Under the pieces are notes generated by a model that worked only from the letters and a program-made list of their open reading frames with translations, was not told where the DNA came from and ran no database searches. The position numbers were made by a program, and so were the translations under genes. From Candidatus Thalassospirochaeta sargassi (lineage in GTDB: Bacteria > Spirochaetota > Spirochaetia > UBA9216), in NCBI GenBank assembly GCA_028532855.1, contig JAQQAL010000011.1, positions 62,001 to 126,000 on the forward strand: a DNA stretch of 64,000 bases. The letters run 5' to 3'. This document shows positions 6,676 through 21,784 of this stretch, piece after piece; position 1 is the first letter of the stretch; the number at the start of each line of letters is the position of its first letter.

Positions 6676-7219
6676 GTGGACCCCATAGTCAATACTAATA
6701 AATCAATTTCTTTAATTTGATTTATTAGTCCCACCTAACTTACTACCCAGCCAGCTTATACATTTCATCAGGAGTCATATCTCCAAGTGTTGAATGCGGC
6801 CTTTGTGAGTTATATTTCTCAATGTATTTCTTTATTCCCTCTGCTGCTTCTATCGGCGATTGATATTCCTTTAGATAAATTTCTCCATATTTTAATGTAC
6901 GCCAGAAACGTTCAATTGCTATGTTGTCGAGCGCCCGGCCCTTACCATTCATGCTGATTTTAACTTCAGAATTTCTCAAAATATCCTGAAAGTCTTTACA
7001 TGTATATTGCGCACCCTGATCTGTGTTGAAGATTTCGGGTTTCCCGTATAGTCTCATAGCTCTTTTAAGTGCAGACACACAAAACGAGCTGTCCATACTG
7101 GTAGAGATTTCCCAGCTCAGGATTTTTCGAGTATACCAGTCCATTACAGCGGTGAGATACACAAATCCATGCTCAAGCCGAATATAGGTAATATCTGAGC
7201 ACCAAACTTCATTGGGCGT
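6676..7219 (-). pseudogene. IS3-family element remnant, transposase OrfB 3' part
   Basis: The minus strand encodes the C-terminal half of an IS3-type OrfB. In frame it reads PNEVWCSDITYIRL, then YLTAVMDWYTRKILSW, a D in FNTDQGAQYT and the E-containing AIERFWRTLKYGEIYL, ending at 6743. OrfA and the N-terminal part of OrfB are missing: the frame runs into the end of the neighbouring element at about 7211-7219 and does not resume beyond 8362. The preserved element end near 6676 reads TAGTGGACCCCATAGTC, as in IS3-type termini. Just inside it a 13-bp inverted repeat (6694-6706 and 6717-6729) forms a strong hairpin. Confidence 0.8.
6694..6729. terminator. Hairpin near IS3 end
   Basis: Perfect 13-bp arms, ACTAATAAATCAA at 6694-6706 and its complement at 6717-6729, are separated by 10 bases. 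The hairpin lies between the transposase stop and the element terminus. It probably limits transcription into or out of the element. Confidence 0.5.
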
Positions 7220-8362
7220 GGGTTATTTTTTCTCATCCGGGACTTTGAACAGCTCTAATATGGTAAATTTACCACAATCAAATTCCTGGATATAATCAAA
7301 GCATGTTCAGCTTCCTTCGCTCTTTACTCGCTTCGATATTCAACACCATATTCCGTAGAAGAAAGAATGTCATCTTCACGATGCTACTCCTCAAGAAAGA
7401 GAATGAAATCTATAGACGACATCTCAATATGCAAAACAAGAAACTGCACTTCAGGAAAAACGATAAGTTCAGTCTTTCGATGATTAAAGCCCTATCTGCG
7501 AGAGCAATGAACCATCTGACAATAGTTAGGCCAGAAACACTTCTTAGTTGGCAACGAAGGTTCATCAAAAACTTCTGGAGCTATAAACATAAAACAACTG
7601 GAAGGAGATCCGTTAACAGAGACATCAAAAATCTGATTCTTGAGATGAAACAGGAAAACTATCTCTGGGGCTGTAAAAAGATCGCTAACGAGCTGAAGAA
7701 AATCAACATCAATATTCATTACACCACTGTAAACAGAATTATCAACACATTCCGGAAGCAAGGTCTAATTCAGCCAAATGGTTCATGGAAAAAGTTCTTT
7801 AAGATGCACTGGGAGTCCCTATTCGCAATGGATTTTATGACGGTTGATACTTTATTTGGAAAACGCCTCTATCTCCTCATTATTCTTGAACTCAAATCAA
7901 GAAAAGTCGCATATTGGAAACTGACAGAAAACCCGAGTCGGGAGTTTATCAGGCAGCAACTAATTGATTTCACATATGACAATGATAGTCCTAAAACTCT
8001 TATATATGATAATGCACCACAGTTTACTTCTATTGATTATTCAGATTATGGAATTACTGGTGTTAACATCTCTTTTGCATCACCAAATATGAACACCTAT
8101 GTTGAAAGATTGAATGGAACTGTCAGACGAGAAGCTCTTGATCATTTCCTTCTGTTTTCTGAGAAGCAGATTAAGAACATAGTTTCTGAATTTGTGGAAT
8201 ATTACAACACAAAGAGAATGCATCAAGGAATCAATAAGATTCCTGATGCTGAAACTCAAGAAAACCTTGGTGTAATAAAGAAAATGAAGATTTTATCCGG
8301 GCTACACCATCATTATTATCGTTCAAGCGCTTAAGGATGTAAACAAATAACCCACGCCCAAT
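7211..8362 (+). mobile_element. Insertion sequence with integrase-core transposase (type A)
   Basis: About 1152 bp bounded by perfect 18-bp inverted repeats at 7211-7228 (ATTGGGCGTGGGTTATTT) and 8345-8362. It encloses one intact transposase gene. No clear target-site duplication is seen, and the IS3 gene at its left border does not continue on the right, so a deletion accompanied or followed insertion. A left-end remnant of a related copy lies at about 19962-20046. The outer six bases of the left repeat also fit the IS3 reading frame, so the true boundary could be a few bases further in. Confidence 0.8.
7303..8334 (+). CDS. DDE integrase-core transposase
   Basis: A 343-residue transposase of the rve integrase-core group, often annotated only as integrase core domain-containing protein. 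A helix-turn-helix-like N-terminal half (TIVRPETLLSWQRRF, LWGCKKIANELKK, TTVNRIINTFRKQG) precedes the catalytic core. Likely catalytic residues are D177 in AMDFMTVD, D236 in YDNAPQF and E268 in TYVERLNG, followed by the usual REALDHF and YYNTKRMHQG segments. It appears intact and may be active. The base composition is AT-rich compared with chromosomal genes here. The copy at 20154-21185 is homologous but diverged. Confidence 0.88.
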   Translation: MFSFLRSLLASIFNTIFRRRKNVIFTMLLLKKENEIYRRHLNMQNKKLHFRKNDKFSLSMIKALSARAMNHLTIVRPETLLSWQRRFIKNFWSYKHKTTGRRSVNRDIKNLILEMKQENYLWGCKKIANELKKININIHYTTVNRIINTFRKQGLIQPNGSWKKFFKMHWESLFAMDFMTVDTLFGKRLYLLIILELKSRKVAYWKLTENPSREFIRQQLIDFTYDNDSPKTLIYDNAPQFTSIDYSDYGITGVNISFASPNMNTYVERLNGTVRREALDHFLLFSEKQIKNIVSEFVEYYNTKRMHQGINKIPDAETQENLGVIKKMKILSGLHHHYYRSSA

Positions 8363-8621
8363 TTTAGGCCAAAAAAAAGAGTTCAGCCAATTTGACCAAA
8401 CTCCTAATCACTTACCCCGACATAATGTCCTTCGGCCATTCTGTTTGGAGTTTGTTTTCAACAAACTCCATTCCATCAAATCATGAATAGGTAATTCATC
8501 TTTAAAAAATCTACTGTTTGCCCAGAACTTGGAGGAAGCTCCTTTGTCGCTTCCTCTGGAGTTTTTCTTCGTCAAACTCCAGACAAATTACTAATCCTGG
8601 TTCGAGTCCATTTCTTTCAGA
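8363..8621. other. Gene-free stretch with hairpins and a tRNA-like fragment
   Basis: No credible gene. It holds a 25-base hairpin (8446-8470, arms TGGAGTTTGTT and complement) and two tandem hairpins (8532-8556 and 8556-8582). The second repeats the TGGAGTTT...AAACTCCA arms of the first. At 8519-8528 the sequence TTGCCCAGAACT repeats the 3' end of tRNA-Leu. At 8597-8610 CTGGTTCGAGTCCA matches the T-arm of the same tRNA in the opposite orientation. These look like debris of earlier recombination at the tRNA-Leu site. Confidence 0.5.
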
Positions 8622-8662
8622 CACAAAAAAAGACAAGCCTGCGTTGCAAGCTTGCCTTTTTT
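8622..8662 (-). terminator. Probable original tRNA-Leu terminator
   Basis: On the minus strand a stem of CAAGC/GCTTG, flanked by A and T runs (AAAAAAAG at 8625-8632, CTTTTTT at 8655-8661), forms a bidirectional intrinsic terminator. It lies directly downstream of the truncated tRNA-Leu 3' end at 8661. The intact tRNA-Leu at 21241 has no such terminator, which suggests this one was separated from it by island insertion. Confidence 0.7.
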
Positions 8663-8714
8663 GCCCAGAACTGGACTCGAACCAGCACGTCCGTGAAGAC
8701 ACTAGACCCTGAAC
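8659..8714 (-). repeat. att-like direct repeat: 3' part of tRNA-Leu (distal copy)
   Basis: 56 bases identical to 21239-21294. They cover the tRNA-Leu(CAG) from the anticodon loop through the variable arm and T-arm to the 3' end. Identity stops one base before the anticodon loop (8715 onward differs). The fragment has no 5' half and no promoter, so it is not a working tRNA. Its extent and direct orientation are those of a tyrosine-recombinase attachment site at the far end of a tRNA-borne island. The 8715-8946 stretch after it holds no recognisable gene. Confidence 0.85.
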
Positions 8715-8946
8715 TCAGTGTGCATCCTTATGTTGTTCATATACTGCTGTATTTAGCAGCATATGGAGAGCTTATGTAGTAAGCTTTCCATATATTGCTT
8801 CTGAACTCGTATAATAAAGGCATCGGTTCTGGCGTCAATAGATTATCAGTTTAGTCGACATCCTATTTTATAAGTTTACCCCATCATTATTGCCATTCAT
8901 GCACCTGAAAGTCAATAAAACCATATCACAAGCATAAAATGCTTTT

Positions 8947-10422
8947 TTATACGTAAAGGTTTTTCAGGTTTCCCAAATATTCAGTATAGCGGTTATACGG
9001 CTCTTTATATGCCTCTACGTTTTCCGGGTTTATTGTTTCGCTTCCGGCCGACAGGATGTGTTCATCCACCAGTGTTTCAAGCGCGGCTCCGTTTGCCTGT
9101 TCAACCTGCCATAGCGCCTGAACAGCTGCCCCGAGCGCGGCGCTGTCATGGTTGCTCAGAATCACCACAGGAAGGCCGGTTATATCGGCAGCCATTTGTC
9201 TCCATATAGGGTTTCGGCTTCCTCCGCCAGTAAGAACTATCTTTGCGGCAGTCATACCAAGCCGTGTAAGTGATTCAAGACCGATTTTCATACCGTATAT
9301 CGCTGACTCCATTGATGCTGCCAGGATGTTGCCCCTTGTCAGATTATTCATATTCAGCCCCATAATGCTCGCCTTGGCATGCGGCATGTTCGGGATACGC
9401 TCACCTGAAAAATACGGAAGAACCGTAACACCGTCAGCACCGGGCGGAACCTCAGCAACCAGCCGCTCCAGCTCTTTTATATCTGTGTCAAAGAGCTCTC
9501 TTGCCTGTTCGGTTGCCACGGTACAGTTCATAGTACACAGCAGCGGCATCCATCCGCCGGAAGAAGAGCAGAAGGCTGCAATAATCCCATCTTCATCAAT
9601 TACCGGCTTGTCGCTGTAGCCAAACAGGGTTCCTGACGTACCCAGGCTCATCGACAGCACTCCCGGCACCACTGCCCCGGTCCCTATTGACGCCATCATA
9701 TTATCACCGCCGCCGCAGGAGACAGGAATTCCTTCAGGAATACCGAAGTATGTGGCTGCTTCAGCAGTCACTTTTCCTGCACCATGTTCTGGACTGTACA
9801 ATGGCGGCAGTTTGTTCGGCAGGTCGGGGTCGATAGCCGCAGCCAGAGCAACGTTCCAGGTTCTTTCCCGAATATTCAGCAATCCCGTTCCGGAGGCATC
9901 GCCGTATTCCATTGTAACCTCTCCGGTAAGAAAATAATTAATGTAATCATGCGGCAGCATGACCCATTCCATCCTGGAAAATTCCTCGGGATAGTTCTTT
10001 TTGAACCATAAAATTTTCGATGCCGTATAGCCGGGCAGAACAGGATTGCCGGCTTCTTTGATAAGCTTTTTTTCTCCGCCGAAGGCGTCAGTAAGTTCTC
10101 CGCATTCAGCGGCTGTAGAGGTATCATTCCAGAGTTTAACCCTGTGCAGCACCATGCCGTCTTCGCCAACCGGAACAAAACCGTGCTGCTGTCCGGAAAC
10201 ACCTGCTGCTATTGCTGTCCGCCTGACTTCCTCAGGTATTTCGACAAGCGCCGCCCTAATGGCCTCAATCCACCAGCGGGCCTCCTGCTCGCTTGTACCG
10301 TCTGAACCGGTAATCAACTCATGGGGGGCTGATGCAACTGCGGCAACCTTTTTTGATTCATAATCATAAAACAAGACCTTGGAGCTCTGGGTTCCAACAT
10401 CAATACCTAATACTGTTTTCAT
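8947..10422 (-). CDS. xylB: Xylulokinase
   Basis: A 491-residue FGGY-family kinase, normal length for XylB, which phosphorylates D-xylulose with ATP to xylulose-5-phosphate for the pentose phosphate pathway. It has the N-terminal phosphate loop GIDVGTQSSK, the sugar-contacting GVSGQQHGFV, the catalytic Asp in GGGDNMMASIGTG, and the C-terminal ATP-site segment LTGGGSRNPIWRQM with ALGAAVQA. The XylB assignment over other FGGY kinases rests on the GQQHG segment and the neighbouring polyol dehydrogenase. Last gene of the island operon, separated from the dehydrogenase by an intrinsic terminator-like hairpin. Confidence 0.88.
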   Translation of the reverse strand: MKTVLGIDVGTQSSKVLFYDYESKKVAAVASAPHELITGSDGTSEQEARWWIEAIRAALVEIPEEVRRTAIAAGVSGQQHGFVPVGEDGMVLHRVKLWNDTSTAAECGELTDAFGGEKKLIKEAGNPVLPGYTASKILWFKKNYPEEFSRMEWVMLPHDYINYFLTGEVTMEYGDASGTGLLNIRERTWNVALAAAIDPDLPNKLPPLYSPEHGAGKVTAEAATYFGIPEGIPVSCGGGDNMMASIGTGAVVPGVLSMSLGTSGTLFGYSDKPVIDEDGIIAAFCSSSGGWMPLLCTMNCTVATEQARELFDTDIKELERLVAEVPPGADGVTVLPYFSGERIPNMPHAKASIMGLNMNNLTRGNILAASMESAIYGMKIGLESLTRLGMTAAKIVLTGGGSRNPIWRQMAADITGLPVVILSNHDSAALGAAVQALWQVEQANGAALETLVDEHILSAGSETINPENVEAYKEPYNRYTEYLGNLKNLYV

Positions 10423-10516: not shown

Positions 10517-11557
10517 TTAAAGTTCAACTACAGCCTTAATAACCTTATCCTTTTCATTGATACATTTCTCAAACATTTCAGGAAGGTCTTCCAGTCGACA
10601 TGTATCGGAGATCACATCCTTCACATCAATACTCTTGTCAGCAACCAGTTTTATTCCCTTAGGATAGAGGTTTTTATATCTGAACTGAGAAAAGATTTTG
10701 CCCTCTTTGCATACCAGACCGATGATATCAACCGGAATGGTTTCTTCTGCAGCCATTCCGGTAATAACAATTCTCCCGCCCTTGGCGATGGCTGCAATTG
10801 TCTGCTGGGTGGTTTTAACCGTACCTGCAGCCTCAAACGCCATATCAACTCCGCGGCCGTTTGTTGCCTTCATAAGCTGTTCAATTACATCATCGGTTTT
10901 ACCGTTCCATACAGCCTTCACACCAAGCTCTTCAGCCTTTTTAATCCTGGGCTCAAGAACATCAACGGCATAGATTTCTTTAACGCCTGCAGCTTGCAGG
11001 GTCTTGATTATCAAAAGTCCAATGCATCCACATCCGAATACAAGAGCACTCTCACCAATCTTTGCACCGGCAAGATCAAGAGCATGCAGTGCTACATCAA
11101 GGGGTTCAATCATTGCACCTTCAACGGTATCACAGCCCTCGGGCAGCTTGAATGCCATATTTTCGGGGTAGGCAATGTATTCAGCAAAAACTCCATCGTA
11201 CGGAGGAGTAGCCAGAAACTTCACATCATTACAAAGGTGATAATCTCCCCTCTTACAAACCTCACATTCTCCGCAAGGGATTCCCGGTTCTAATGCCACC
11301 TGGTCACCAACCTTGAGGTTTTTAACGTCGGCTCCAAGTTCAACAACCTCTCCACCGCTCTCGTGACCTAAAATAAACGGCGGCTTAATAACATAATCAC
11401 CGATGTTGCCGTATTCATAGTAATGAATATCAGAACCGCAAATTCCTACATGCTTAATTTTAACCAGTACCTCATCCGGCTTAATCTCCGGCTTGGGAAC
11501 ATCCTGTATTTCAATCTTCCTGATTCCGGTCATTACTGCAGCTTTCATTGTGCTCAT
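10517..11557 (-). CDS. Zinc-dependent polyol dehydrogenase (sorbitol/xylitol type)
   Basis: A 346-residue medium-chain dehydrogenase. Catalytic zinc ligands are in GICGSDIHYYEYG (Cys) and LGHESGG (His-Glu). The structural zinc lobe GIPCGECEVCKRGDYHLC has four Cys. The nucleotide fold GCGCIGLL ends in an acidic residue (AVDVLEPR), which favours NAD over NADP. The closest pattern is sorbitol or xylitol dehydrogenase. Beside xylulokinase the best guess is oxidation of xylitol or D-arabitol to D-xylulose, though sorbitol to fructose cannot be excluded. GGGAGAAGTAA precedes the ATG. It lies between two terminator-like hairpins in the operon. Confidence 0.85.
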   Translation of the reverse strand: MSTMKAAVMTGIRKIEIQDVPKPEIKPDEVLVKIKHVGICGSDIHYYEYGNIGDYVIKPPFILGHESGGEVVELGADVKNLKVGDQVALEPGIPCGECEVCKRGDYHLCNDVKFLATPPYDGVFAEYIAYPENMAFKLPEGCDTVEGAMIEPLDVALHALDLAGAKIGESALVFGCGCIGLLIIKTLQAAGVKEIYAVDVLEPRIKKAEELGVKAVWNGKTDDVIEQLMKATNGRGVDMAFEAAGTVKTTQQTIAAIAKGGRIVITGMAAEETIPVDIIGLVCKEGKIFSQFRYKNLYPKGIKLVADKSIDVKDVISDTCRLEDLPEMFEKCINEKDKVIKAVVEL

Positions 11558-11625: not shown

Positions 11626-12765
11626 TTATCGTTCCCAATATCCCGGTAGAGTCTCTTTGGTCATTTTGAGAGCGCCTTCATCATATCCCTTACTTCCACG
11701 GCCTTCGAGATATTTCTCGGTGTCATAGAACTGAGCATTTTCTTCAGTTACAACAGTTGAACTTGCATAGATAATCGGATAATCGAATGCATCCTTGTCC
11801 GGATTTACTGAATAGTCGTTCATCGGATCAAGCAGCTCATGATTCTGGAGATACAGAGCGAGCATACCAAGGTAGCCGAAGTTATATGCATCAGGCATAA
11901 CAGCGGCGGCAATACTTCCGTTTTTCATGTATTCAAGAACGTTCTGGTTAACGTCGAATGAAAGGATCTTAACATCTGAACCTACTTCTTCTACTGCTGT
12001 TGCTGCACCCATTGCTGCTGCAGGAGTGATACTGAAGATATAGTCTACGTCAGGATGAGCAAGCATTATGTTCTTTGCAGCCTCTGCACCCTTCATCTCA
12101 TCATGCTTGGTATCAGCTTTTGCTACAATTTCAACACCCGGCCAGTCCCGGTTAAGGTTTTCTGTAAAAGCAGCAATTCTTGTTTCGTGGTTTCTCTGAC
12201 CAACATTTTCAAACAGAGCAACCTGCCCCTTACCGTTAAGCATCTTTCCAATATAGTCAGCAGCCTTCTTGGTACTGATAAGGTCATTATGGTTGATAAC
12301 GGCGGCTAATCTTGCGCCCGGAATATCATTCTCGCCAACTACAAGCGGAATATTATTTTCATTAGCTCTAAGAGCAGTTTCAACTAAAGGTTCACCGTTT
12401 GTCGGGTTAATCATAATACCGGCTGGCTTAAGAGATATAACCTGTTCAAAAACACTAATCTGCTCGTTAATATCGGCAGTCATTGCACCCTGGTATTTTG
12501 TGTTAACACCAAGCTGTCTTGCTGCATCCTTAAAGCCTTCATAGTAGCTTGCCCAGTACGGATAACCGCTTAAAAAGGTAATCAGATAATAAGTCTCACC
12601 CTCATCACCAACGAAAGCCGGTGTGCTCTTTGCTGTAAATCCTGCAACCTCAGTATCAGCTGCTGATGCTGATTCGGAACTGTTTCCACATGACATGAAA
12701 ATACCCGCAATAAGCATGAGCATTACCACAATTGCCATACCCCTTTTTAACCCATTTCTCTTCAT
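11626..12765 (-). CDS. Sugar ABC transporter substrate-binding lipoprotein (ribose-type)
   Basis: About 379 residues. The signal is MKRNGLKRGMAIVVMLMLIA with lipobox IFMSC, giving a lipid-anchored periplasmic protein. The mature part is a type I periplasmic binding protein (RbsB/LacI-like). Typical segments are YWASYYEGFKDAARQLGVNT, a GIMINPTNGEPLVETALRA strand-helix, and IAAVINHNDL. The start at 12765 is chosen because GAGGAGAATCAA precedes it; the frame remains open upstream. It binds the sugar or polyol taken up by the adjacent permease and ATPase. The ligand is inferred from the operon as a pentitol or pentose. Confidence 0.88.
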   Translation of the reverse strand: MKRNGLKRGMAIVVMLMLIAGIFMSCGNSSESASAADTEVAGFTAKSTPAFVGDEGETYYLITFLSGYPYWASYYEGFKDAARQLGVNTKYQGAMTADINEQISVFEQVISLKPAGIMINPTNGEPLVETALRANENNIPLVVGENDIPGARLAAVINHNDLISTKKAADYIGKMLNGKGQVALFENVGQRNHETRIAAFTENLNRDWPGVEIVAKADTKHDEMKGAEAAKNIMLAHPDVDYIFSITPAAAMGAATAVEEVGSDVKILSFDVNQNVLEYMKNGSIAAAVMPDAYNFGYLGMLALYLQNHELLDPMNDYSVNPDKDAFDYPIIYASSTVVTEENAQFYDTEKYLEGRGSKGYDEGALKMTKETLPGYWER

Positions 12766-12800
12766 TTGATTCTCCTCAATCATTTATTTCTAAAAGAAAA

Positions 12801-13805
12801 TTATATTCTTTTATTTGCTTTAGTTCGTTCGATAATCGAATCCATCAATACAGCTATCAGCAATACAAGGCTGCTTATAAGCTGCTGCCAGTAAACCGAT
12901 ATGCCCAAAAGGACCAATGCGCCGCTTACAATTCCCAGCAGTATTAAACCAAGGGTTGAGCCGAAAACAGTTCCTTCACCGCCGCTCAGGCTTGCACCGC
13001 CGATAACAGCTGCTGATATCGCTGTCATCTCCAATCCGGTTCCGAATGTAGGTGATGCAGACTTGAATCTTGCAATAGCAAGAACTCCGGCTATCCAGCA
13101 TAAGAATCCAATCATCAGATATACGAAGAACTTAATCTTATTCGGATTGATACCTGAAAAATATGCTGCATCTTCGTTGCTGCCGACATAGAAAACCTTT
13201 CGCATCTGCCGTGAATATTTCAACAGGATGTGAAATATTATTGCCGCTATAAAAAAGATGATAACTATGTACGGAATGCCGAAAAGATGTCCCCGGCCGA
13301 TGTCTTTAAGCCATTCGGGAAGCTTCATAAGGGACATTGGTGCACCCTTTGATATGATGTAGACCAGACCACGGGCAATGCCCATTATGGATAACGTTGC
13401 TATGAACGGATTCAAACCACCTATTGTGATCAGCAAACCGTTTAATGAACCCATAACCAGAGCGACAAGCAGCGACACCAGGAGTGCAAGAAAAATATTC
13501 TCGGTTGATATGAAAATATTTCCGGCAATGATGCCGACAAGTGCTGTTACCGAGCCGACTGATAGGTCAAACCCTCCGGCTATAAGTGCAACGGTCATTC
13601 CGAGTGTCAAAAACCCTGTAATTGAAATACTCAACAGAATATTAAGTATATTCTCACTGGTTAAGAAAACCGGATTTGCAATTGACAGTACTATTGAAAA
13701 CAGGACTATGATAAAAATCAGTGCAATTTCTCTGATTTTTGTCAGCTTCTTCAGGAAGTTTTTAGCTTCTGTTTTCTCCGTTCTAATTTCGTTAACTGTT
13801 TCCAT
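12801..13805 (-). CDS. Sugar ABC transporter permease (RbsC-like)
   Basis: A 334-residue membrane protein of the ribose/xylose/galactose permease family. It has about nine to ten hydrophobic segments and the family signature GGFDLSVGSVTALVGIIAG near residues 85-105. The C-terminal EAA-like cytoplasmic loop contains IGGASLSGGEGTVFG, which docks the ATPase. The start codon overlaps the ATPase stop as TAATG, giving tight coupling. It presumably works as a homodimer with the fused RbsA-type ATPase. It is also the obvious docking candidate for the ABC domain of the histidine kinase encoded at 18108. Confidence 0.9.
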   Translation of the reverse strand: METVNEIRTEKTEAKNFLKKLTKIREIALIFIIVLFSIVLSIANPVFLTSENILNILLSISITGFLTLGMTVALIAGGFDLSVGSVTALVGIIAGNIFISTENIFLALLVSLLVALVMGSLNGLLITIGGLNPFIATLSIMGIARGLVYIISKGAPMSLMKLPEWLKDIGRGHLFGIPYIVIIFFIAAIIFHILLKYSRQMRKVFYVGSNEDAAYFSGINPNKIKFFVYLMIGFLCWIAGVLAIARFKSASPTFGTGLEMTAISAAVIGGASLSGGEGTVFGSTLGLILLGIVSGALVLLGISVYWQQLISSLVLLIAVLMDSIIERTKANKRI

Positions 13806-15334
13806 TATAAATTACTCCCTTTAGCTATTCCTGAAGCCATATGCATAATATTGCTCTCAGTGATATCTTTATCTGTAAGATCTCCCATCATTGTTCCCTC
13901 ATGGAAGACCATAACCCTGTCGCATAATCCTACAATCTCTTCCAAATCTGAAGAGATAACGATTACACCGACCCCCCTGTCTACAAGGGCCCGGATTAAT
14001 GTGTATATTTCTTTTTTGGAACCGACATCAATTCCCCGGGTAGGTTCATCAAGAATTACAATCTTTGGTGAGACCGACAGCAACTTAGCAATCAGAATCT
14101 TTTGCTGGTTACCGCCGCTCAAGGTTCCTACCTTATCGGTTTTTTCGCTGTACTTAACCGAAAGCTCTTTACAGTACCTATCGGTATTCTCAATCTCAAG
14201 AGATTTATTCATCAGGATTTTACCCGACATTTCACCCAGACTCATTGCCGAGACATTGTCGGTAATAGACATCTCAAGAAAGAGGCCCTCTTTCTTTCGG
14301 TTTTCAGTCAGATATACAATTCCCTCTGATATAGAATCCTTATAGCTCTTTATAGATAATTCCTTTCCCTCAAGAAATACTGAGCCGGTCTGTTTTCGAT
14401 CCAGCCCGCATATCGAGCGCGCCGTCTCCGTTCTTCCGGAACCCATCAGTCCTGAAACCCCGAGAATTTCACCCTTTCTAAGATCAAAAGACACATTTGC
14501 AAAGCTCGGTTTATTGGTAAGCTCCCTCACCGAAAGCAGAACTTCCTCATCGGATCCTGCTGCCTTTTCAGGATAGAAATCTCCAAGCTCGCGGCCAATC
14601 ATCTTATTAATAACAGTTTTTACTTCGACATCTTTGATATTGAGGGTATCAATAAACTGTCCGTCTCTTAGAATTGTTACCCGGTCGCAGTTGTTAAATA
14701 CCTCTTCAAGCCGGTGGCTGATATAAATAATTCCAATATTATTCTTTCGAAGCTCATCAATAATTGCAAACAGTTTTTCAGATTCGTCTTCAGTTAGTGC
14801 TGCAGTGGGCTCATCAAATATCAACACGGAACAGTCAAGCAGCAGGGCTTTAACAATTTCAACAATCTGCTGGTATGAGATAGAGAGATTAGACAACTTC
14901 TCTTTTACATTTATTTCAACGTTGAATCTAGATAGATATTCCTCAGCGGTTTTATACATCCAGTTATAATCAAGAAATCCCTTTGGATTCTTATCCATTA
15001 CACTCATGCAAATATTTTCCGCAACTGAAAGCTCAGGGCAGTTTATTATCTCCTGGTGTACAATACCGATTCCGTTAAGGTGGGCATCTCTTGGAGAAGA
15101 AAAGGCAACCTCTTCTCCTTTATATAGAAGCTTTCCGGAATCTTTCTGAAGCCCGCCCGATATAATCTTCATCAATGTAGATTTTCCGGCACCGTTTTCT
15201 CCGCATAGGCCGAGAACTTCTCCACCGTATAGATCCATTGTCACATCATCAAGTGCTTTAGTGCCCGGAAAAGATTTCGAGACATTCTGTATTTTTAGTA
15301 TGGGCTCGTTCAAAAGGTCCTCCGATACTTCCAT
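13805..15334 (-). CDS. Sugar ABC transporter ATP-binding protein (RbsA-like, two ATPase domains)
   Basis: A 509-residue protein with two tandem ABC domains, the usual form for CUT2 sugar importers. Domain 1 has Walker A GENGAGKST, signature LSISYQQIVEI and Walker B LIFDEPTAAL. Domain 2 has the altered P-loop GLMGSGRTE typical of RbsA, signature LSGGNQQK and Walker B VILDEPTRGID. It overlaps the URO-D-like gene upstream and the permease downstream (TAATG junctions at both ends). The first domain is the same type as the N-terminal domain of the nearby histidine kinase. Confidence 0.92.
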   Translation of the reverse strand: MEVSEDLLNEPILKIQNVSKSFPGTKALDDVTMDLYGGEVLGLCGENGAGKSTLMKIISGGLQKDSGKLLYKGEEVAFSSPRDAHLNGIGIVHQEIINCPELSVAENICMSVMDKNPKGFLDYNWMYKTAEEYLSRFNVEINVKEKLSNLSISYQQIVEIVKALLLDCSVLIFDEPTAALTEDESEKLFAIIDELRKNNIGIIYISHRLEEVFNNCDRVTILRDGQFIDTLNIKDVEVKTVINKMIGRELGDFYPEKAAGSDEEVLLSVRELTNKPSFANVSFDLRKGEILGVSGLMGSGRTETARSICGLDRKQTGSVFLEGKELSIKSYKDSISEGIVYLTENRKKEGLFLEMSITDNVSAMSLGEMSGKILMNKSLEIENTDRYCKELSVKYSEKTDKVGTLSGGNQQKILIAKLLSVSPKIVILDEPTRGIDVGSKKEIYTLIRALVDRGVGVIVISSDLEEIVGLCDRVMVFHEGTMMGDLTDKDITESNIMHMASGIAKGSNL

Positions 15335-16590
15335 TATTTTCCCGTAACTGCAGATATCAGTGCTCGGATATTCTCAGTCGGAGTTCCTGCCTGAATGTTA
15401 TGAATATTTGCACCGATGAACCCACCGCCTGCTGAAAGTATTTCAGTATTCTTTTTGGTTTCATCATAAACTTCTTCAGGAGTTCCGGCAGCAAGCGTTG
15501 TCTGAGGATTTACAGTACCTCCGCAGAAAACGATCTTGTCAGCGTATTTATCCTTAAGTGTCTTCGGATCCATTCCGGCTGCTGAAACCTGTACCGGATT
15601 TAAGATATCAAGTCCGGTTTCGATAAAATCATCGATAAAATCTGCAACTGCACCGCATGTATGGTTCATTGTCTTCCATGGGGTATTCTCATGAATCCAG
15701 CTCATTATCCTAATCATGTAGGGCTTATAGAACTCTCTATAAGCATCTATTGTCATCAAAGGACCGTTCTGTGCGCCGAAATCAGTTCCGCTTACATAGC
15801 AGATATCAACCTTGTCGCCCATAGCCTGATATGCAAGCTCCAGATCCTTGATACAAATCTCAGTCTGCATTTCGTAATAATCTTTCACATACTCAGGATG
15901 AAGATAGGGAGCCATCATCCAGTCTTCAAGGTTTCTGATACCGCGGGGAGCTTCAAGCCATGAACCAGGGATATGAAAGAAGTCACCGAGGCCGCCCATT
16001 CCGCAGTTAAATATTATCGACTTGTCTGTGTTGTTATACGCATAGTCAGCACATTTCTCAAAATGCCGTAATTCGTGATCTGTGTAGACCGCATACTGAT
16101 CTGAATAATCTACCCGTGCATTATATTCATGATCGGGGCCCAGAGGTTTCTGTCTATAGATATGATCAAAATAGAAACCATGCGGCGGCATATGTGCTGC
16201 AGGCTCGGAATTTGGGTTTGAATTGGCATAGAGATAAACCATTCCATCATCACCGACACTGGTTGTGAATCCTTCGCCTACCAGGAAATCCTCGCCGTTA
16301 GGGGCAGTCCAATTCTTCCAGTTACTATTCTCATATGCTAAAAGTGAATCAGGGCCGAAAATACCGATAAAATCACCGCCGACGCTATCAAGTAAATCTT
16401 CTTCTACCTCACCCAAAAACATTAACGGTTCAAATACTTTGACCGGTTTCTCTTCAAGACCGTATGAAGCACGCAACTTCTTCATTTCGAAAGCACTTAA
16501 ACCTGTAACAAAGGTAGCTCCCAAATCAAATGGAGCGCGATCGGTTTCCTTAAAGTTTATTGCATCACGAACTCTTTCTCTTGATGTCAC
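15334..16590 (-). CDS. URO-D/methyltransferase-fold protein of the sugar operon
   Basis: A 418-residue member of the uroporphyrinogen-decarboxylase fold, which also includes MtaA/MtbA/CmuA zinc methyltransferases. An H-x-C pair (MNHTCG, H310 and C312) matches the zinc-binding arrangement of the methyltransferases, and another Cys is at 356 (FCGG). The C-terminal segment IGANIHNIQAGTP is typical of members found in sugar operons. A true heme enzyme is unlikely. It is the first gene of the operon, starts with GTG behind AAAGGAG, and follows a sigma-54 promoter directly. Its role in polyol use is unknown; demethylation of a methylated substrate is one speculation. Confidence 0.75.
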   Translation of the reverse strand: MTSRERVRDAINFKETDRAPFDLGATFVTGLSAFEMKKLRASYGLEEKPVKVFEPLMFLGEVEEDLLDSVGGDFIGIFGPDSLLAYENSNWKNWTAPNGEDFLVGEGFTTSVGDDGMVYLYANSNPNSEPAAHMPPHGFYFDHIYRQKPLGPDHEYNARVDYSDQYAVYTDHELRHFEKCADYAYNNTDKSIIFNCGMGGLGDFFHIPGSWLEAPRGIRNLEDWMMAPYLHPEYVKDYYEMQTEICIKDLELAYQAMGDKVDICYVSGTDFGAQNGPLMTIDAYREFYKPYMIRIMSWIHENTPWKTMNHTCGAVADFIDDFIETGLDILNPVQVSAAGMDPKTLKDKYADKIVFCGGTVNPQTTLAAGTPEEVYDETKKNTEILSAGGGFIGANIHNIQAGTPTENIRALISAVTGK

Positions 16591-16624
16591 AAATATCTCC
16601 TTTCAAATTACATCGTTTACACAT

Positions 16625-16642
16625 ATGCAATTTAAGTGCCAA
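16625..16642 (-). promoter_or_regulatory. Sigma-54 (-24/-12) promoter of the sugar operon
   Basis: The minus strand reads TTGGCAC-TTAAA-TTGCAT (GTGCCAA at 16636-16642 and ATGCAA at 16625-16630 on the plus strand). The GG and GC elements have the exact spacing of the RpoN consensus. Transcription should start near 16613, leaving about 24 bases before the GTG at 16590. The divergently encoded sigma-54 activator supports the call. Confidence 0.88.
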
Positions 16643-16716
16643 CTTCTCAAAAATTTTGTATCTGCTTGTATAGCAACAAAATAGTATAACTACAGCCAAT
16701 ATTTACAAATTTTTAA

Positions 16717-16745
16717 TTGTGTAAATCTGTGTAACATTGTATAAT
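16717..16745 (+). promoter_or_regulatory. Sigma-70-type promoter of the response regulator gene
   Basis: TTGTGT at 16717-16722 and TATAAT at 16740-16745 are separated by 17 bases. TGTGTAA sites overlap the -35 region, and the palindrome 16750-16767 covers the likely start, so autorepression is plausible. Confidence 0.55.
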
Positions 16746-16786
16746 TTTATGTGTAAACTGTTACACAACTTTCGGAGACCCTGACT

Positions 16787-18124
16787 ATGAAATACAATAT
16801 TCTTATCGTAGATGATATAGAAAAGCTCTGCAAAATTATTGTGCAGGACCTGGAGCTGCTCGGCTACAGGGGCATGTACGCCACAAACAGCAGCACGGCC
16901 CTTGAGATATTTTCCAGCGAAAACATCCATGTTGTACTGCTTGACCTTAAACTGGGGAAAGAGGACGGCATTGAGGTTCTCGGAAAGATGAAAAAACTGA
17001 AACCAAACGTACCTGTATTTATGATCACCGGCCACGGCTCAATATCCAATGCCGTAACCGCAATAAAAAGCGGCGCATATGATTATATTCAGAAACCTGT
17101 TGATTTTGAGAGGCTGAAGATTTCTATCCAGAATGCGATTGACCATACATGCCTAAAAGATGAAAACCTCCAGCTAAAGAAGCTGCTTGAAGAAAAACGC
17201 GGCATACCTATTGTAACGATAGACCCTCAGATGCAGGCCCTGCTTGAAAGACTGAAGAAGTTTGCCGCCACCGACTATCCAATCTTTATTGAAGGTGAGA
17301 GCGGTTCAGGCAAAGAGCTCATAGCTGAATATATCCATCTTAACTCAGTACGAAAAGAGAATGAGTTATTCAAAATCAACTGCGCAGCCTTTTCCGAGAC
17401 TCTGCTCGATGATGAATTATTCGGACACTACAAGGGTGCATTCACCGGGGCGGATGCCGACTTTAAGGGTGTATTCGAACGGGCCAACAACAGCACCCTC
17501 TTTCTCGATGAGATCGGCGACATGACACCAACTATACAGGCCAAGATTCTTAGAACCCTTCAGAATAAAGAGGTAAGACGTCTCGGCGGCAAAAAAAACA
17601 TCCTTGTTGACGTTCGATTTATTGCGGCAACCAATAAGAATATTAAGGCGCTGACCGAGCAGGGCTCGTTTCGGGAAGACCTCTATTTCCGCCTAAACAC
17701 AGTCATGGTGTCTATTCCGCCGCTGAGGAAAAGACCAGGCGATATTAAATTATTATGCAGCCACTTTCTGAAAAAGTCCTCAATGCAGTCCGGCTCCGAT
17801 GAGAAAGAGGTGGCCGCCGAGGTTGAAGAGTTTTTTTCCCGATACCCCTGGCCCGGCAATATCAGAGAGCTGCAGAATGTTATAAATTACTGCAATACCG
17901 TAAACAACAGCGGAATGATTAATATGAGCGATCTGCCTAATTACCTGATAAACACCCCGCAGGAGCCCTTTATTTCAAAAGAACAGAGATTGACTGATGA
18001 GAGCAAAATAATTTTGGATGCGCTTGCAGCATGTAACTACAATAAATCCAGAGCAGCTGAATATCTGAAGATAAGCAGAAAAACTCTTTACAACAAAATG
18101 GAAAAATATGAAATCAATGTCTGA
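16787..18124 (+). CDS. Sigma-54-dependent response regulator (NtrC family)
   Basis: A 445-residue protein with three domains. The receiver (1 to about 120) has acidic pair D9-D10, phospho-acceptor D53 in VVLLDLKLG and a Lys in the QKPVDF switch. The AAA+ domain (about 140-375) has Walker A GESGSGKE, the sigma-54 contact loop GAFTGAD and the arginine-rich sensor RLNTVMVSIPPLRKRPGD. A Fis-type helix-turn-helix closes the protein (CNYNKSRAAEYLKISRKTLYNKM). It should hydrolyse ATP to open RpoN promoters. Divergent from the transporter operon, it overlaps the histidine kinase gene by 17 bases, so they form a cognate pair. An RBS-like CGGAGACC precedes the ATG. Confidence 0.93.
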   Translation: MKYNILIVDDIEKLCKIIVQDLELLGYRGMYATNSSTALEIFSSENIHVVLLDLKLGKEDGIEVLGKMKKLKPNVPVFMITGHGSISNAVTAIKSGAYDYIQKPVDFERLKISIQNAIDHTCLKDENLQLKKLLEEKRGIPIVTIDPQMQALLERLKKFAATDYPIFIEGESGSGKELIAEYIHLNSVRKENELFKINCAAFSETLLDDELFGHYKGAFTGADADFKGVFERANNSTLFLDEIGDMTPTIQAKILRTLQNKEVRRLGGKKNILVDVRFIAATNKNIKALTEQGSFREDLYFRLNTVMVSIPPLRKRPGDIKLLCSHFLKKSSMQSGSDEKEVAAEVEEFFSRYPWPGNIRELQNVINYCNTVNNSGMINMSDLPNYLINTPQEPFISKEQRLTDESKIILDALAACNYNKSRAAEYLKISRKTLYNKMEKYEINV

Positions 18125-19928
18125 GCAGCGCAAACCAGTAATCGAAATAAAAAATGCCTATCTTGACTACGGAATAATACCAGTCCTGAAGAACCTGAAT
18201 GCCTCAATATATGCAAATGAAATACATGCTCTGATAGGCGAGCATGGAGCCGGCAAATCATCACTTGCAAAGATGCTGTCGGGCTTTCAACCCCCGAAAA
18301 CCGGAAACATATATTATGACGGGGAACGAATAAAATGCTCCCCCGGCACTGCCAAACGCCTAGGCATTGAAATGGTCACCCAGGACAACCACCTTTTTCC
18401 TAATCTGACCGTTGCAAATAATATTGTGCTCGGCGAAAACGATAAATCGGCAGAGCATGCCGTAAGCAGGTTCTTTGATGAACTGGAGATAGATATCAGT
18501 CCGAAATCACTTATAAGTAATCTCAACCTCTCAGACCGCGTAATGGTTGATATCTGTAAACATTTCTACAACACACCGAAGGTTCTGATACTTGATGAGG
18601 CTCTGGAGAAATTATCAGCCAGCTACCTTGAAAAAGTAATTCAGGTGCTGCATAGAATGAAGGAGGACGGGTGCGCAATTCTATTTATTACGCACCGTGT
18701 AGATGATATCTATGAAATTGCAGACAAGGTCTCGATTATTAGAAACGGTAATATTATTGCTACACAGCCGGTTGAGGACATTGATAAGTTCAACCTTATT
18801 AAGATGGCATATACTCAGGTAATCAGAACCACCGATATAAATTATCTTAATGCTGATTTTTATAACCTGTTGAAATACAACGAGGCCGTACTTAAGAAAC
18901 TACCCTCTGCGATATTGATCTCAGACGAAATGCTGAATGTAAGGTTCATCAATGATATTGCAAAAAACTATTTTGAGATCGATGAAAGCGTCCATCCGAG
19001 AATTGAAATGAAACAGGTACTTGGAGAGGAAAACTCAAATGTCTTCAACCTGCTCCAAAGCTGTATAGCGGAAAGAAATGAGGAGATTTTCTACGATGTT
19101 CAGGTTCAGTATCTGAAGGGTCTGTCTTCTCAAAATATCAGCATCATTCCACTGTTTGACGGTAAACTTTTTATCGGCAGTATAATTACGATGGATGATG
19201 TGACAGAGTACGAAACCCTCAGAAGACAGTTATCGATCAAAGAGAACCTGTCATCTATCGGGCTGCTCTCTGCCGGAGTTGCTCACGAGATAAACAATCC
19301 CCTTGAGATAATCAATTATTATATGCAGAACCTCAAACTGACAAATCCTGATAATGAAAAAATAATGGAAATAGTTGTTGATGTTCAGGAGGAAATAAAA
19401 TCTATTTCAAACATCATTGACAACCTTCTTCTGTTCTCTGAGGATAAAAAACTAACCGCTGAAACCGTTGAGGTGAACAGCCTGATAAGCGGCATTGTGC
19501 ACCTTATAACAAAATCAACAGAAGAACGAAAAATCGATTTGGTATTTGATACTGAGAATGAAGACATCTATATCAAAACCGTCAGAACTGAATTGAAACA
19601 GGTTTTTCTAAACATCATAAAAAACTCGATTGATGCAATTAAAGAAAACGGTCGAATCTCGGTCAGCACTGCACTGAAACTCACTGATTCGGAAAGACCG
19701 GTTGCAGAGATAACCTTTTCAGATGACGGCCCTGGGGTAGACTCGGAAATTATTGACAACATCTTCATGCCGTTTTATACAACGAAGACGGGTTCATCCA
19801 ACAATATGGGCTTAGGTCTTTCAATCTCTTACAGGATTGTAGATAAGTACGGAGGTACAATGGACATGAACAATCTAACGTCAGGCGGCTGCCGAACGAC
19901 TCTCACGTTCCCAGCAGCAGTGGAGTAA
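18108..19928 (+). CDS. Soluble histidine kinase with N-terminal RbsA-like ABC ATPase domain
   Basis: A 606-residue fusion without transmembrane segments. Residues about 10-240 are an ABC ATPase most like the first domain of RbsA. It has Walker A GEHGAGKS (44-51), Q-loop Gln 92, a degenerate signature LNLSDRVMVDI (139-149, where RbsA has an LSxGxxQMVEI-type sequence), Walker B VLILDEA (159-165) and switch His 196 (ITHR). A PAS-like segment follows (about 255-370). The kinase core is HisKA with phospho-acceptor H393 (GVAHEINNPLE) and HATPase boxes NIIKNSIDAI, DDGPGVD and GLGLSI. Translationally coupled to the response regulator. I infer that the ABC domain docks on the permease and reports transporter state. 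ATP binding looks preserved; hydrolysis is uncertain. Confidence 0.88.
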   Translation: MKSMSEQRKPVIEIKNAYLDYGIIPVLKNLNASIYANEIHALIGEHGAGKSSLAKMLSGFQPPKTGNIYYDGERIKCSPGTAKRLGIEMVTQDNHLFPNLTVANNIVLGENDKSAEHAVSRFFDELEIDISPKSLISNLNLSDRVMVDICKHFYNTPKVLILDEALEKLSASYLEKVIQVLHRMKEDGCAILFITHRVDDIYEIADKVSIIRNGNIIATQPVEDIDKFNLIKMAYTQVIRTTDINYLNADFYNLLKYNEAVLKKLPSAILISDEMLNVRFINDIAKNYFEIDESVHPRIEMKQVLGEENSNVFNLLQSCIAERNEEIFYDVQVQYLKGLSSQNISIIPLFDGKLFIGSIITMDDVTEYETLRRQLSIKENLSSIGLLSAGVAHEINNPLEIINYYMQNLKLTNPDNEKIMEIVVDVQEEIKSISNIIDNLLLFSEDKKLTAETVEVNSLISGIVHLITKSTEERKIDLVFDTENEDIYIKTVRTELKQVFLNIIKNSIDAIKENGRISVSTALKLTDSERPVAEITFSDDGPGVDSEIIDNIFMPFYTTKTGSSNNMGLGLSISYRIVDKYGGTMDMNNLTSGGCRTTLTFPAAVE

Positions 19929-19961
19929 TTCACGGTCCTCCCCAACGATTAGTCTTGAATC

Positions 19962-20046
19962 AATCCCGTGCGTTTTTCTCATCCGGGACTTTGAGCAGCT
20001 CTAATATAGTAAATTTTCTACAATCAAATTCCTGGATATAATCAAA
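19962..20046 (+). repeat. Left-end remnant of the type A insertion sequence
   Basis: About 70-85 bases closely match 7217-7300, from the TCTCATCCGGGACTTTGA block to CTGGATATAATCAAA. The match ends exactly where the type A transposase start codon would follow, and unrelated sequence begins at 20047. It is a scar of an earlier insertion, later interrupted by the type B element. The rest of the 19929-20153 gap belongs to the two elements. Confidence 0.75.
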
Positions 20047-20087
20047 CCCGTACTATAGTTTTTTTAACTAATGTGGTAATTCTACCC

Positions 20088-21216
20088 GTGGTGTAGTTTA
20101 ATTCTATCGGGAACTCGAATGACCCAAATTTTCTACATTCCGATAATATAAATATGTTCAACTTTATCGTGAGTCTTCTCAAGTCCATGTTTTCTATCAT
20201 TTTCAAGAAACAGAAAGATGTAATATTTACCTTACTCTTACTCAAGAAAGAAAATGAGATTATGAAACGTCATCTTAATCTCGCCGGAAAGAAAACCAGC
20301 TCAAATATTTCTGACCGTTTCTGCTTATCACTTATTGCATCATTATCAAAACGAGCAATTAACCACCTAACAATAGTAAAACCTGAAACTCTTCTGGAGT
20401 GGCAGCGACGGTTCATTAAGAAAAGATGGTCTTTCAAACATAAAAAAAGAGGAAGAAAACCTGTTACAGCTGATCTCAAAAATCTAATTCTGGAAATGAA
20501 AACCGACAATCCATTATGGGGATGTAGAAGAATCTCTGACGAGCTGAAGAAACTGAACATCGACATCCATCATACTACCGTAAACAAGATTATCCAGACA
20601 TTTAGAAAGCAAGGGAAAATTCAATCAAATGGAAGCTGGAAGAAATTTCTTAAATCAAACTGGGATTCGCTGTATGGAATGGATTTTATGACAATTGATA
20701 CACTATTCGGTAAGAGATTCTACCTGTTAATTATTCTAGAACTAAAATCTCGAAGGATAATCCGATTTGATTTAACTGAAAATCCCTGTAGAGAATTTGT
20801 GAAGCAAAGGATTTAATTATTTTCCGAAGATTTTCATGAGAAAAAGACGTTAATCTTTGACAATGCTCCTCAATTCACATTTATTGATTACAGTAGCTAT
20901 GACATTGAGGGAGTAAATATCTGCTCTTACGCTCCAAACATGAATGCGTTTGTAGAAAGATTAAACAGCAGCATTAGACGTGAAGCTCTGGACCATTTTC
21001 TTTTATTTTCACAAAAACAGATTCGGAAAATTGTTAAATCGTATGTGGATTATTATAACCATCAACGCCCGCATCAAGGGATTAATAAGATTCCAGCGGC
21101 AAAAACAAATTCATCAACCGGAATCATCAAGAAGGAGCAAGTTTTAGGAGGTCTCCATCATCATTATTATCGAAGCAGTGCCTGAGATTCATTCAGATAG
21201 AATAAAACTACGGCAC
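20088..21216 (+). mobile_element. Insertion sequence related to type A (type B, inactive)
   Basis: About 1129 bp between imperfect inverted repeats at 20088-20110 and 21194-21216 (19 of 23 positions, core GTAGTTTNATTCTATC). It encloses a transposase gene homologous to that of the type A element but diverged. The right end lies only 24 bases from the tRNA-Leu 3' end. The transposase is interrupted by a stop codon, so the copy is probably dead unless complemented by the intact relative. Confidence 0.75.
20154..21185 (+). pseudogene. Broken integrase-core transposase (in-frame stop)
   Basis: 344 codons align end to end with the transposase at 7303. A TAA at 20814-20816 (after FVKQRI) interrupts the frame, which then continues without shift: LFSEDFHEKK, DNAPQF, then NAFVERLNSS and the C-terminal HHHYYRSSA. 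All three catalytic carboxylates are still encoded (D in GMDFMTID, D in IFDNAPQF, E in FVERLN). A single point mutation therefore inactivated it recently. Confidence 0.85.
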
Positions 21217-21238
21217 GCTCTTACCCCGTAAGGGTTTA

Positions 21239-21294
21239 TTTTGCCCAGAACTGGACTCGAACCAGCACGTCCGTGAAGACACTAGACCCTGAAC
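21239..21294 (-). repeat. att-like direct repeat (tRNA-proximal copy)
   Basis: This is the part of tRNA-Leu repeated at 8659-8714: 56 identical bases from just past the anticodon loop to the 3' end. It marks the probable recombination site of the island. Confidence 0.85.
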
Positions 21295-21326
21295 CTAGCG
21301 TGTCTACCAATTTCACCACCTGGGCA
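21241..21326 (-). tRNA. tRNA-Leu (CAG)
   Basis: An 86-base tRNA with a 7-bp acceptor stem (TGCCCAG pairing with CTGGGCA) and discriminator A. The D-arm reads GGTGAAATTGGTAGACACG. The anticodon stem-loop is CTAGG-TTCAGGG-TCTAG with anticodon CAG at 21289-21291. A long class II variable arm follows (TGTCTTCACGGACGT), then T-arm GCTGGTTCGAGTCCAGT. CCA is not encoded. No intrinsic terminator follows it at this site; a good one follows the truncated copy at 8661. Confidence 0.95.
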
Positions 21327-21336
21327 CTGTGGAGCT

Positions 21337-21365
21337 ATATTACCTAAGAGAAAGATGCTTGTCAA
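21337..21365 (-). promoter_or_regulatory. Strong sigma-70 promoter of tRNA-Leu
   Basis: On the minus strand TTGACA (21360-21365) and TAATAT (21337-21342) are separated by exactly 17 bases, ending about 10 bases before the tRNA 5' end. The gap up to 21480 also has a GC-rich palindromic run (CGGCCGGCCGG) and a small GACGG/CCGTC hairpin. I see no gene there. Confidence 0.85.
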
Positions 21366-21480
21366 TGGGAATCTCTCCCCTACGGTTCCCTCGGATGTTT
21401 TACAAAGCTGATACGAGCGGAAGGCCCGGCCGGCCGGTTTTCTATCAGAAAATAAGGACGGAGACGCCCGTCTTCTTTAT

Positions 21481-21693
21481 ATGTTAAAATGCAGTATGAG
21501 TAATGAGCCTTGCTTTTGGTACCCGGTATGCCCTATAAAACGATTCTACGATGCTGGTCTAATAGAAGAGTTCTGGGTACGCGAATACTGCTGGAGCGGC
21601 GGTAATGGCTGCGTGCGAAAGAGGATGGAGGCGGAGAGAAGATTTCATCCGGATAATATGATGCCTGACGGTTCGATTCGTGAAGATCTTTGA
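21481..21693 (+). CDS. Small conserved cysteine-rich protein
   Basis: 70 residues, or 65 from the second Met. It resembles a family of short proteins common in anaerobes, with a conserved pattern of CP-x-KRFY, then EYCW, CVRKRMEAE and the C-terminal HPDNMMPDGSI. Members are sometimes annotated, without basis I know of, as uracil-DNA glycosylase. Four cysteines could bind a metal. No Shine-Dalgarno sequence stands out, so the start is uncertain. It stands alone upstream of the chemoreceptor gene. Function unknown. Confidence 0.6.
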   Translation: MLKCSMSNEPCFWYPVCPIKRFYDAGLIEEFWVREYCWSGGNGCVRKRMEAERRFHPDNMMPDGSIREDL

Positions 21694-21784
21694 TTTTTTT
21701 TGTGATTTACTTTGATTCTCATTTTGGATCTCTTACAATATATTGTATTAGTTGAATTCTAAAATTTGATCAAAGGATACTCTA

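Follow-up and report, generated by a model that had tools for sequence, protein, structure and literature searches.

How a bacterium adjusts the synthesis of a sugar transporter to the work of that transporter is the question raised by a locus of Candidatus Thalassospirochaeta sargassi. The locus was analysed within a 64-kb stretch of contig JAQQAL010000011.1 (64,000 nucleotides, hereafter the window). A 196-bp intergenic segment (16591-16786) separates a transporter operon from the divergent genes for a response regulator and a sensor histidine kinase. The original prediction, made from the DNA alone, was that this segment carries a sigma-54 promoter and an array of TGTGTAA sites, by which the regulator would activate the operon and repress its own gene. 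We asked how much of this circuit is borne out by related loci, and what the kinase might sense.

The transporter operon and its surroundings

The operon lies on the minus strand. Its first gene encodes a uroporphyrinogen decarboxylase (URO-D)/MtaA-like protein (15334-16590, Pfam PF01208), and is followed by genes for a tandem sugar ABC ATPase of the CUT2/RbsA type (13805-15334), a CUT2-type permease (12801-13805, Pfam PF02653), a periplasmic sugar-binding protein (11626-12783, Pfam PF13407), a zinc-type polyol/alcohol dehydrogenase (10517-11557), and a xylulokinase (8947-10422) that matches TIGR01312 above its cut-off. Since XylB and a dehydrogenase are encoded in the operon, its substrate is probably a pentitol or a pentulose-yielding sugar. 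The URO-D/MtaA-like gene recurs beside several related kinase-transporter modules (loci L053, L054, L057 and L064).

The kinase, the regulator and the operon are flanked by two related IS3/IS481-like elements (6900-8946 and 19929-21784), which have the same orientation, the right one being apparently shortened. The two flanks have in common 56 bp that are identical (8659-8714 and 21239-21294) and 74 bp that match at 95%, and the whole cassette may once have been mobile as one unit. Three matches to the flagellar filament family FlaA were found in the genome and none in the control genomes, in keeping with a spirochaete.

A sigma-54 element that follows the transporter

The consensus -24/-12 element predicted before the operon proved to be an exact match. 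The sequence TGGCACTTAAATTGCA, at 16641-16626 on the minus strand and facing the operon, reads TGGCAC-N5-TTGCA with no mismatch to the consensus. It is the single occurrence of TGGCAC-N5-TTGCW in the 64 kb, and its GG and GC dinucleotides have the usual spacing in a TGGCAC-N5-TTGC context. The element stops 35 nt short of the GTG with which the first gene starts, at 16590. With transcription presumed to begin near 16615, the leader would be about 25 nt long.

Next, 69 related loci were sorted by gene order, and 58 of them had a clear divergent or downstream transporter. In 39 of the 47 divergent loci, window included, the transporter strand carried a -24/-12 element within 350 bp, compared to 1.75 expected. 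One of the 47 had such an element on the opposite strand, and eight had no recognisable element. When the transporter was placed 3′ of the kinase, the element was found at most 300 bp after the kinase gene, again on the transporter strand, in 9 loci out of 11 (0.23 expected). Its position relative to the transporter is conserved in 48 of the 58 loci. The element accompanies the transporter in both gene orders. This strongly indicates that in this kinase family it is the promoter of the transporter, and supports the sigma-54 promoter proposed for the operon.

TGTGTAA sites and the candidate operator

The five TGTGTAA/TTACACA sites reported in the intergenic segment are all exact: 16617-16623 (minus strand), 16718-16724, 16728-16734 and 16750-16756 (plus strand), and 16761-16767 (minus strand). 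Of 2000 dinucleotide shuffles, one gave five copies of any single 7-mer in 196 bp, and such a density was seen at no other place in 3191 windows across the 64 kb.

The last two sites form TGTGTAA-ACTG-TTACACA, the palindromic pair that had been announced. Sequence and comparison together make this pair, TGTGTAAACTGTTACACA (16750-16767), a candidate palindromic operator of the TGT-N12-ACA type. Its centre lies about 144 bp upstream of where sigma-54 transcription is presumed to start, and it is presumed to be the high-affinity site of the response regulator. By itself, the palindrome is not significant, as an equally good one was found in 406 of the 2000 shuffles. The exact TGTGTAA-N4-TTACACA is present in a single copy in the 3.8-Mb genome. 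A one-mismatch palindrome found elsewhere in the genome, inside a permease gene, was taken as a chance occurrence in coding DNA.

This is the one full palindrome of the window locus, and the remaining sites are candidate half-sites. The site at 16728 begins 10 bp after the one at 16718. A variant half-site, TGTATAA (16738-16744, plus strand), differs from them by one mismatch, keeps the 10-bp register and overlaps a TATAAT at 16740-16745; TGTATAA is also enriched as a half-site in the relatives. The putative helical phasing (10, 10 and 12 bp, counting TGTATAA) is shared by three or four sites alone. The half-site at 16617-16623 lies downstream of the -12 box and ahead of the presumed start. 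At glnA, governor sites restrain transcription when the regulator is abundant, and by analogy this half-site may be a downstream, governor-like site with the same effect. In one relative, L033, TTACACA likewise lies 3′ of the -12 box.

The regulator gene (16787-18124, plus strand) encodes an NtrC-family activator, as had been claimed. Its product has a receiver, a sigma-54 AAA+ domain and a Fis-type helix-turn-helix (Pfam PF00072, PF00158, PF25601 and PF02954), with a GAFTGA motif and the phospho-acceptor D53. The putative sigma-70 promoter of this gene, TTGTGT-N17-TATAAT at 16717-16745 (plus strand), is plausible by eye but was not called by a consensus scan of the plus strand. The operators overlie this guessed promoter, and would probably limit expression of the regulator. 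RpoN is indeed encoded at 29353; lptC, lptB and the gene for HPr kinase are its neighbours. This lpt-rpoN-hprK cluster is an ordinary housekeeping neighbourhood, not part of a local circuit. RpoN would serve the circuit without belonging to it, and the description of the circuit as self-contained is not supported.

Operators were then compared in the 66 loci having enough upstream sequence, window included. Palindromes of the form TGT..ACA, with at least 6 of 7 arm positions matched, were scored before the regulator start. Those of width 17 were found in 13 loci (0.28 expected) and those of width 18 in 9 loci (0.27 expected). The remaining widths between 14 and 22 did not exceed the background. 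TGT-N11/12-ACA palindromes are thus enriched about 40 fold before the regulator gene, with the proviso that these counts, like those of the half-sites below, overstate independence, the loci being kin. Palindromes of close relatives are 17 bp wide, compared to 18 bp in the window, a spacing difference of one base.

The half-site word depended on the recognition helix of the regulator. With SR[KR]TLYN helices, 12 TGTGTAA sites were found in 6 of 24 loci (1.2 expected), compared to 2 sites in the 41 loci with other helices (2.2 expected). TGTGCA was strongest with HR (His) helices (12 sites in 7 of 11 loci, 2.0 expected). Conservation of TGTGTAA before orthologous operons, which had been suggested as a check, is therefore observed in the helix-matched subset. 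At L102, a TGTTCA-type palindrome occurs at the regulator start and recurs upstream of the sigma-54 element of the transporter. In L053 and L054, the regulator is preceded by densely packed, overlapping GGTAACAGATCTGTTACC-type repeats, a clearer candidate operator array than that of the window. The palindromes and half-sites form the pattern that a regulator binding its own promoter and its target promoter would leave. The promoter circuit is ordinary in kind, and is well supported by the comparison.

A histidine kinase with an ABC ATPase domain

The kinase paired with this regulator (18108-19928, plus strand) has a feature absent from the original prediction, an N-terminal ABC ATPase domain, detected with Pfam and by alignment. 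This domain (about residues 9-236) is followed by a PAS-like region, HisKA and HATPase_c. Pfam matched ABC_tran (residues 27-166), HisKA and HATPase_c, and no other domain. No strong membrane segment, and no evident membrane sensor, was seen in the protein. The residues of a histidine kinase, the phospho-acceptor H393 and N502/N506, G541, G543, G568 and G570 of the N and G boxes, are invariant. Both ABC_tran and HATPase_c were matched in 27 of 27 aligned relatives; PAS was matched in about half of these, presumably in the region between ABC_tran and HisKA.

The fusion was found in 55 of the 347 genomes of the class (E ≤ 1e-50); beyond the class, two families of this phylum also have it. A tblastn search of plasmids did not find the full-length fusion, and a scan of contigs with the kinase as query gave partial matches, none of them full. 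Nearly all family members with enough flank adjoin CUT2 transporter genes, and some genomes have three copies of the fusion, each near a different sugar transporter. The genome studied here contains at least two further ABC-kinase modules, G000:C11:330651-332465 (L035) and G000:C53:3355-5139 (L057), each with its own CUT2 transporter. At L050, the ATPase of the neighbouring transporter was matched over one nucleotide-binding domain, compared to the tandem form elsewhere.

In a tree of 59 domains, the ABC domains of the kinases form one clade (support 100/95), nested among the first nucleotide-binding domains (NBD1) of the neighbouring CUT2 ATPases. The second ones (NBD2) stand apart from the kinase/NBD1 group (100/100). 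The kinase domain descends from a CUT2 NBD1.

K50 (Walker A), Q92 (Q-loop) and D163 (Walker B) are invariant in the kinase alignment A1, and E164 is kept in 90% or more. CUT2 NBD1 domains keep the Walker A Lys, the Q-loop Gln and the H-loop His and have a weak signature, while in NBD2 domains the Walker A is degenerate and LSGGQ intact. The idea that the signature motif had been lost in the kinases was dropped, as weak signatures are normal in CUT2 NBD1. The mark of the kinases is loss of the LDEP Pro, absent in all 19 kinase domains compared; the H-loop His is present in 13 of the 19, among them the window protein. Judged on LSGGQ, the LDEP Pro and the H-loop His taken together, the domain is not classed as a functional ABC ATPase. 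As an NBD1-like domain that retains Lys, Gln and Asp, it probably binds ATP, and it could still face a permease. In the absence of an LSGGQ signature, two copies would be unable to build a normal ATP site.

A literature search, thin in subscription journals, returned no description of an ABC-ATPase/histidine-kinase fusion.

Proposed mechanism and alternative explanations

We propose that this kinase, a cytoplasmic protein, uses its captured CUT2 NBD1 as a sensor that would report the state of the neighbouring transporter, most likely by docking on the permease. The kinase would phosphorylate the NtrC-type regulator, which would bind TGT-N12-ACA at 16750-16767 and the adjoining TGTGTAA half-sites. 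Bound some 100-150 bp upstream of the sigma-54 start, the regulator would loop and activate RpoN polymerase at 16641-16626, and sugar uptake and breakdown would be switched on. The same sites would probably restrain the gene of the regulator itself. As an explanation of the promoter region, this circuit is quite probable, although the single full palindrome in the window, the eight divergent loci with no element and the one-base difference in palindrome width tell against it. The docking step is a tentative proposal, somewhat below an even chance. So is its generalisation to the soluble kinases of spirochaetes with a captured NBD1, which we hold with the same reserve. There, the permease dimer would be met by the two NBD1-like domains of a kinase dimer instead of by the transport ATPase, and induction of the pump would have the pump itself as its receptor. 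As for the sign of the signal, the kinase is supposed to fire upon engagement of the permease by the loaded binding protein. Contact between kinase and permease is not established by distance correlation, which for the kinase ABC domain and the permease was weakly above the controls (partial r 0.27, with 0.13 for PAS and 0.28 for the regulator). A single-sequence structure model was unusable (pLDDT 32).

Another regulator, global or repressor-type, might bind the TGTGTAA cluster, with the NtrC-type regulator using other sites. The exact half-sites do form no regular palindrome series, and the 16617 site lies inside the promoter, as this explanation would have it. However, the same operator type is enriched before the regulator gene in the relatives and covaries with the recognition helix of the regulator, so that such an assignment is improbable. 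A global regulator is a particularly poor fit to a palindrome that is unique in the genome, its one-mismatch copy being in coding DNA. Regarding the kinase, an annotation or assembly artefact is practically excluded, since the fusion is a single open frame both in the window and across dozens of genomes, internal stops being present in only one of the listed matches, and since both ABC_tran and HATPase_c were recognised in every aligned member.

A more serious competitor to docking, though in our opinion a somewhat less likely one, is that the ABC domain responds to a small molecule, cytoplasmic ATP or another, with no contact to the transporter. The kinase appears soluble, its ATP-binding residues are kept, and lacking LSGGQ, two copies would form no canonical ATP site. 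Against this stand the origin of the domain in a CUT2 NBD1, the proximity of CUT2 genes in nearly all members with enough flank, and the invariant Q-loop Gln, which in ABC importers is next to the permease contact. Alternatively, the kinase may double as a working ATPase subunit, substituting for NBD1 in some complexes. An NBD1 contributes Walker A, the Q-loop and the catalytic Glu, and an NBD2 the LSGGQ, and the kinase domain is of the NBD1 type. Yet a complete tandem ATPase is already encoded at most loci, and the LDEP Pro is lost in 19 of 19 kinase domains and the H-loop His often, which makes a transporting kinase very doubtful. Docking of the kinase on the permease, with the reserve stated above, remains our preferred reading.

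Comparison with known systems

How kinases read the working state of ABC importers is studied in systems such as PhoR/PhoU/Pst, which involve several separate proteins. At the present locus, the kinase itself contains an ATPase domain of the transporter type, and its output would be a compact sigma-54 promoter, so that transporter sensing could be tested directly with purified kinase, permease and one promoter. Since such kinases are widespread in the class, and some genomes have three of them, the family would provide a general route of sugar choice in these spirochaetes. Our analysis suggests that a kinase carrying a piece of the motor of a sugar pump listens to the pump itself.

With NtrB/NtrC, the locus has in common a receiver-AAA+-Fis regulator with GAFTGA, a -24/-12 promoter, and candidate operators that are palindromic and lie at distal upstream sites. 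It differs by the presumed sensor of the kinase, which is an ABC ATPase domain, and by candidate operators of the TGT-N11/12-ACA type. A transporter-derived module fused to a histidine kinase is also the hallmark of CbrA/CbrB and other SLC5/STAC kinases (PMC7096432, PMC9100948), where it is the membrane domain of an SLC5 symporter, whereas here it is a soluble ABC nucleotide-binding domain; neither an SLC5 membrane domain nor a STAC domain was found in the window kinase by Pfam and a membrane-segment check. In BceAB-BceS modules and 5TMR/S-component kinases (PMC11109136), an ABC transporter and a kinase likewise make one sensing unit, or share a fold, but these are membrane kinases without a fused nucleotide-binding domain. 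The CUT2 ATPases RbsA, AraG and LsrA have an NBD1 of the same type as the kinase domain, whereas the kinase has a single NBD, joined to PAS-HisKA-HATPase.

The closest parallel in function may be PhoR/PhoU/PstSCAB, in which PhoR senses which conformation the ATPase PstB adopts (PMC5775613), kinase output being set by the conformational state of an importer ATPase, as might by analogy be the case here. In that system the ATPase is a separate subunit and PhoU is also needed; here the ATPase domain lies within the kinase, and the regulator is sigma-54-dependent. Given the PhoR/PstB precedent, docking of the captured NBD1 on the permease would allow a PhoR-like reading of transporter state to be made directly.
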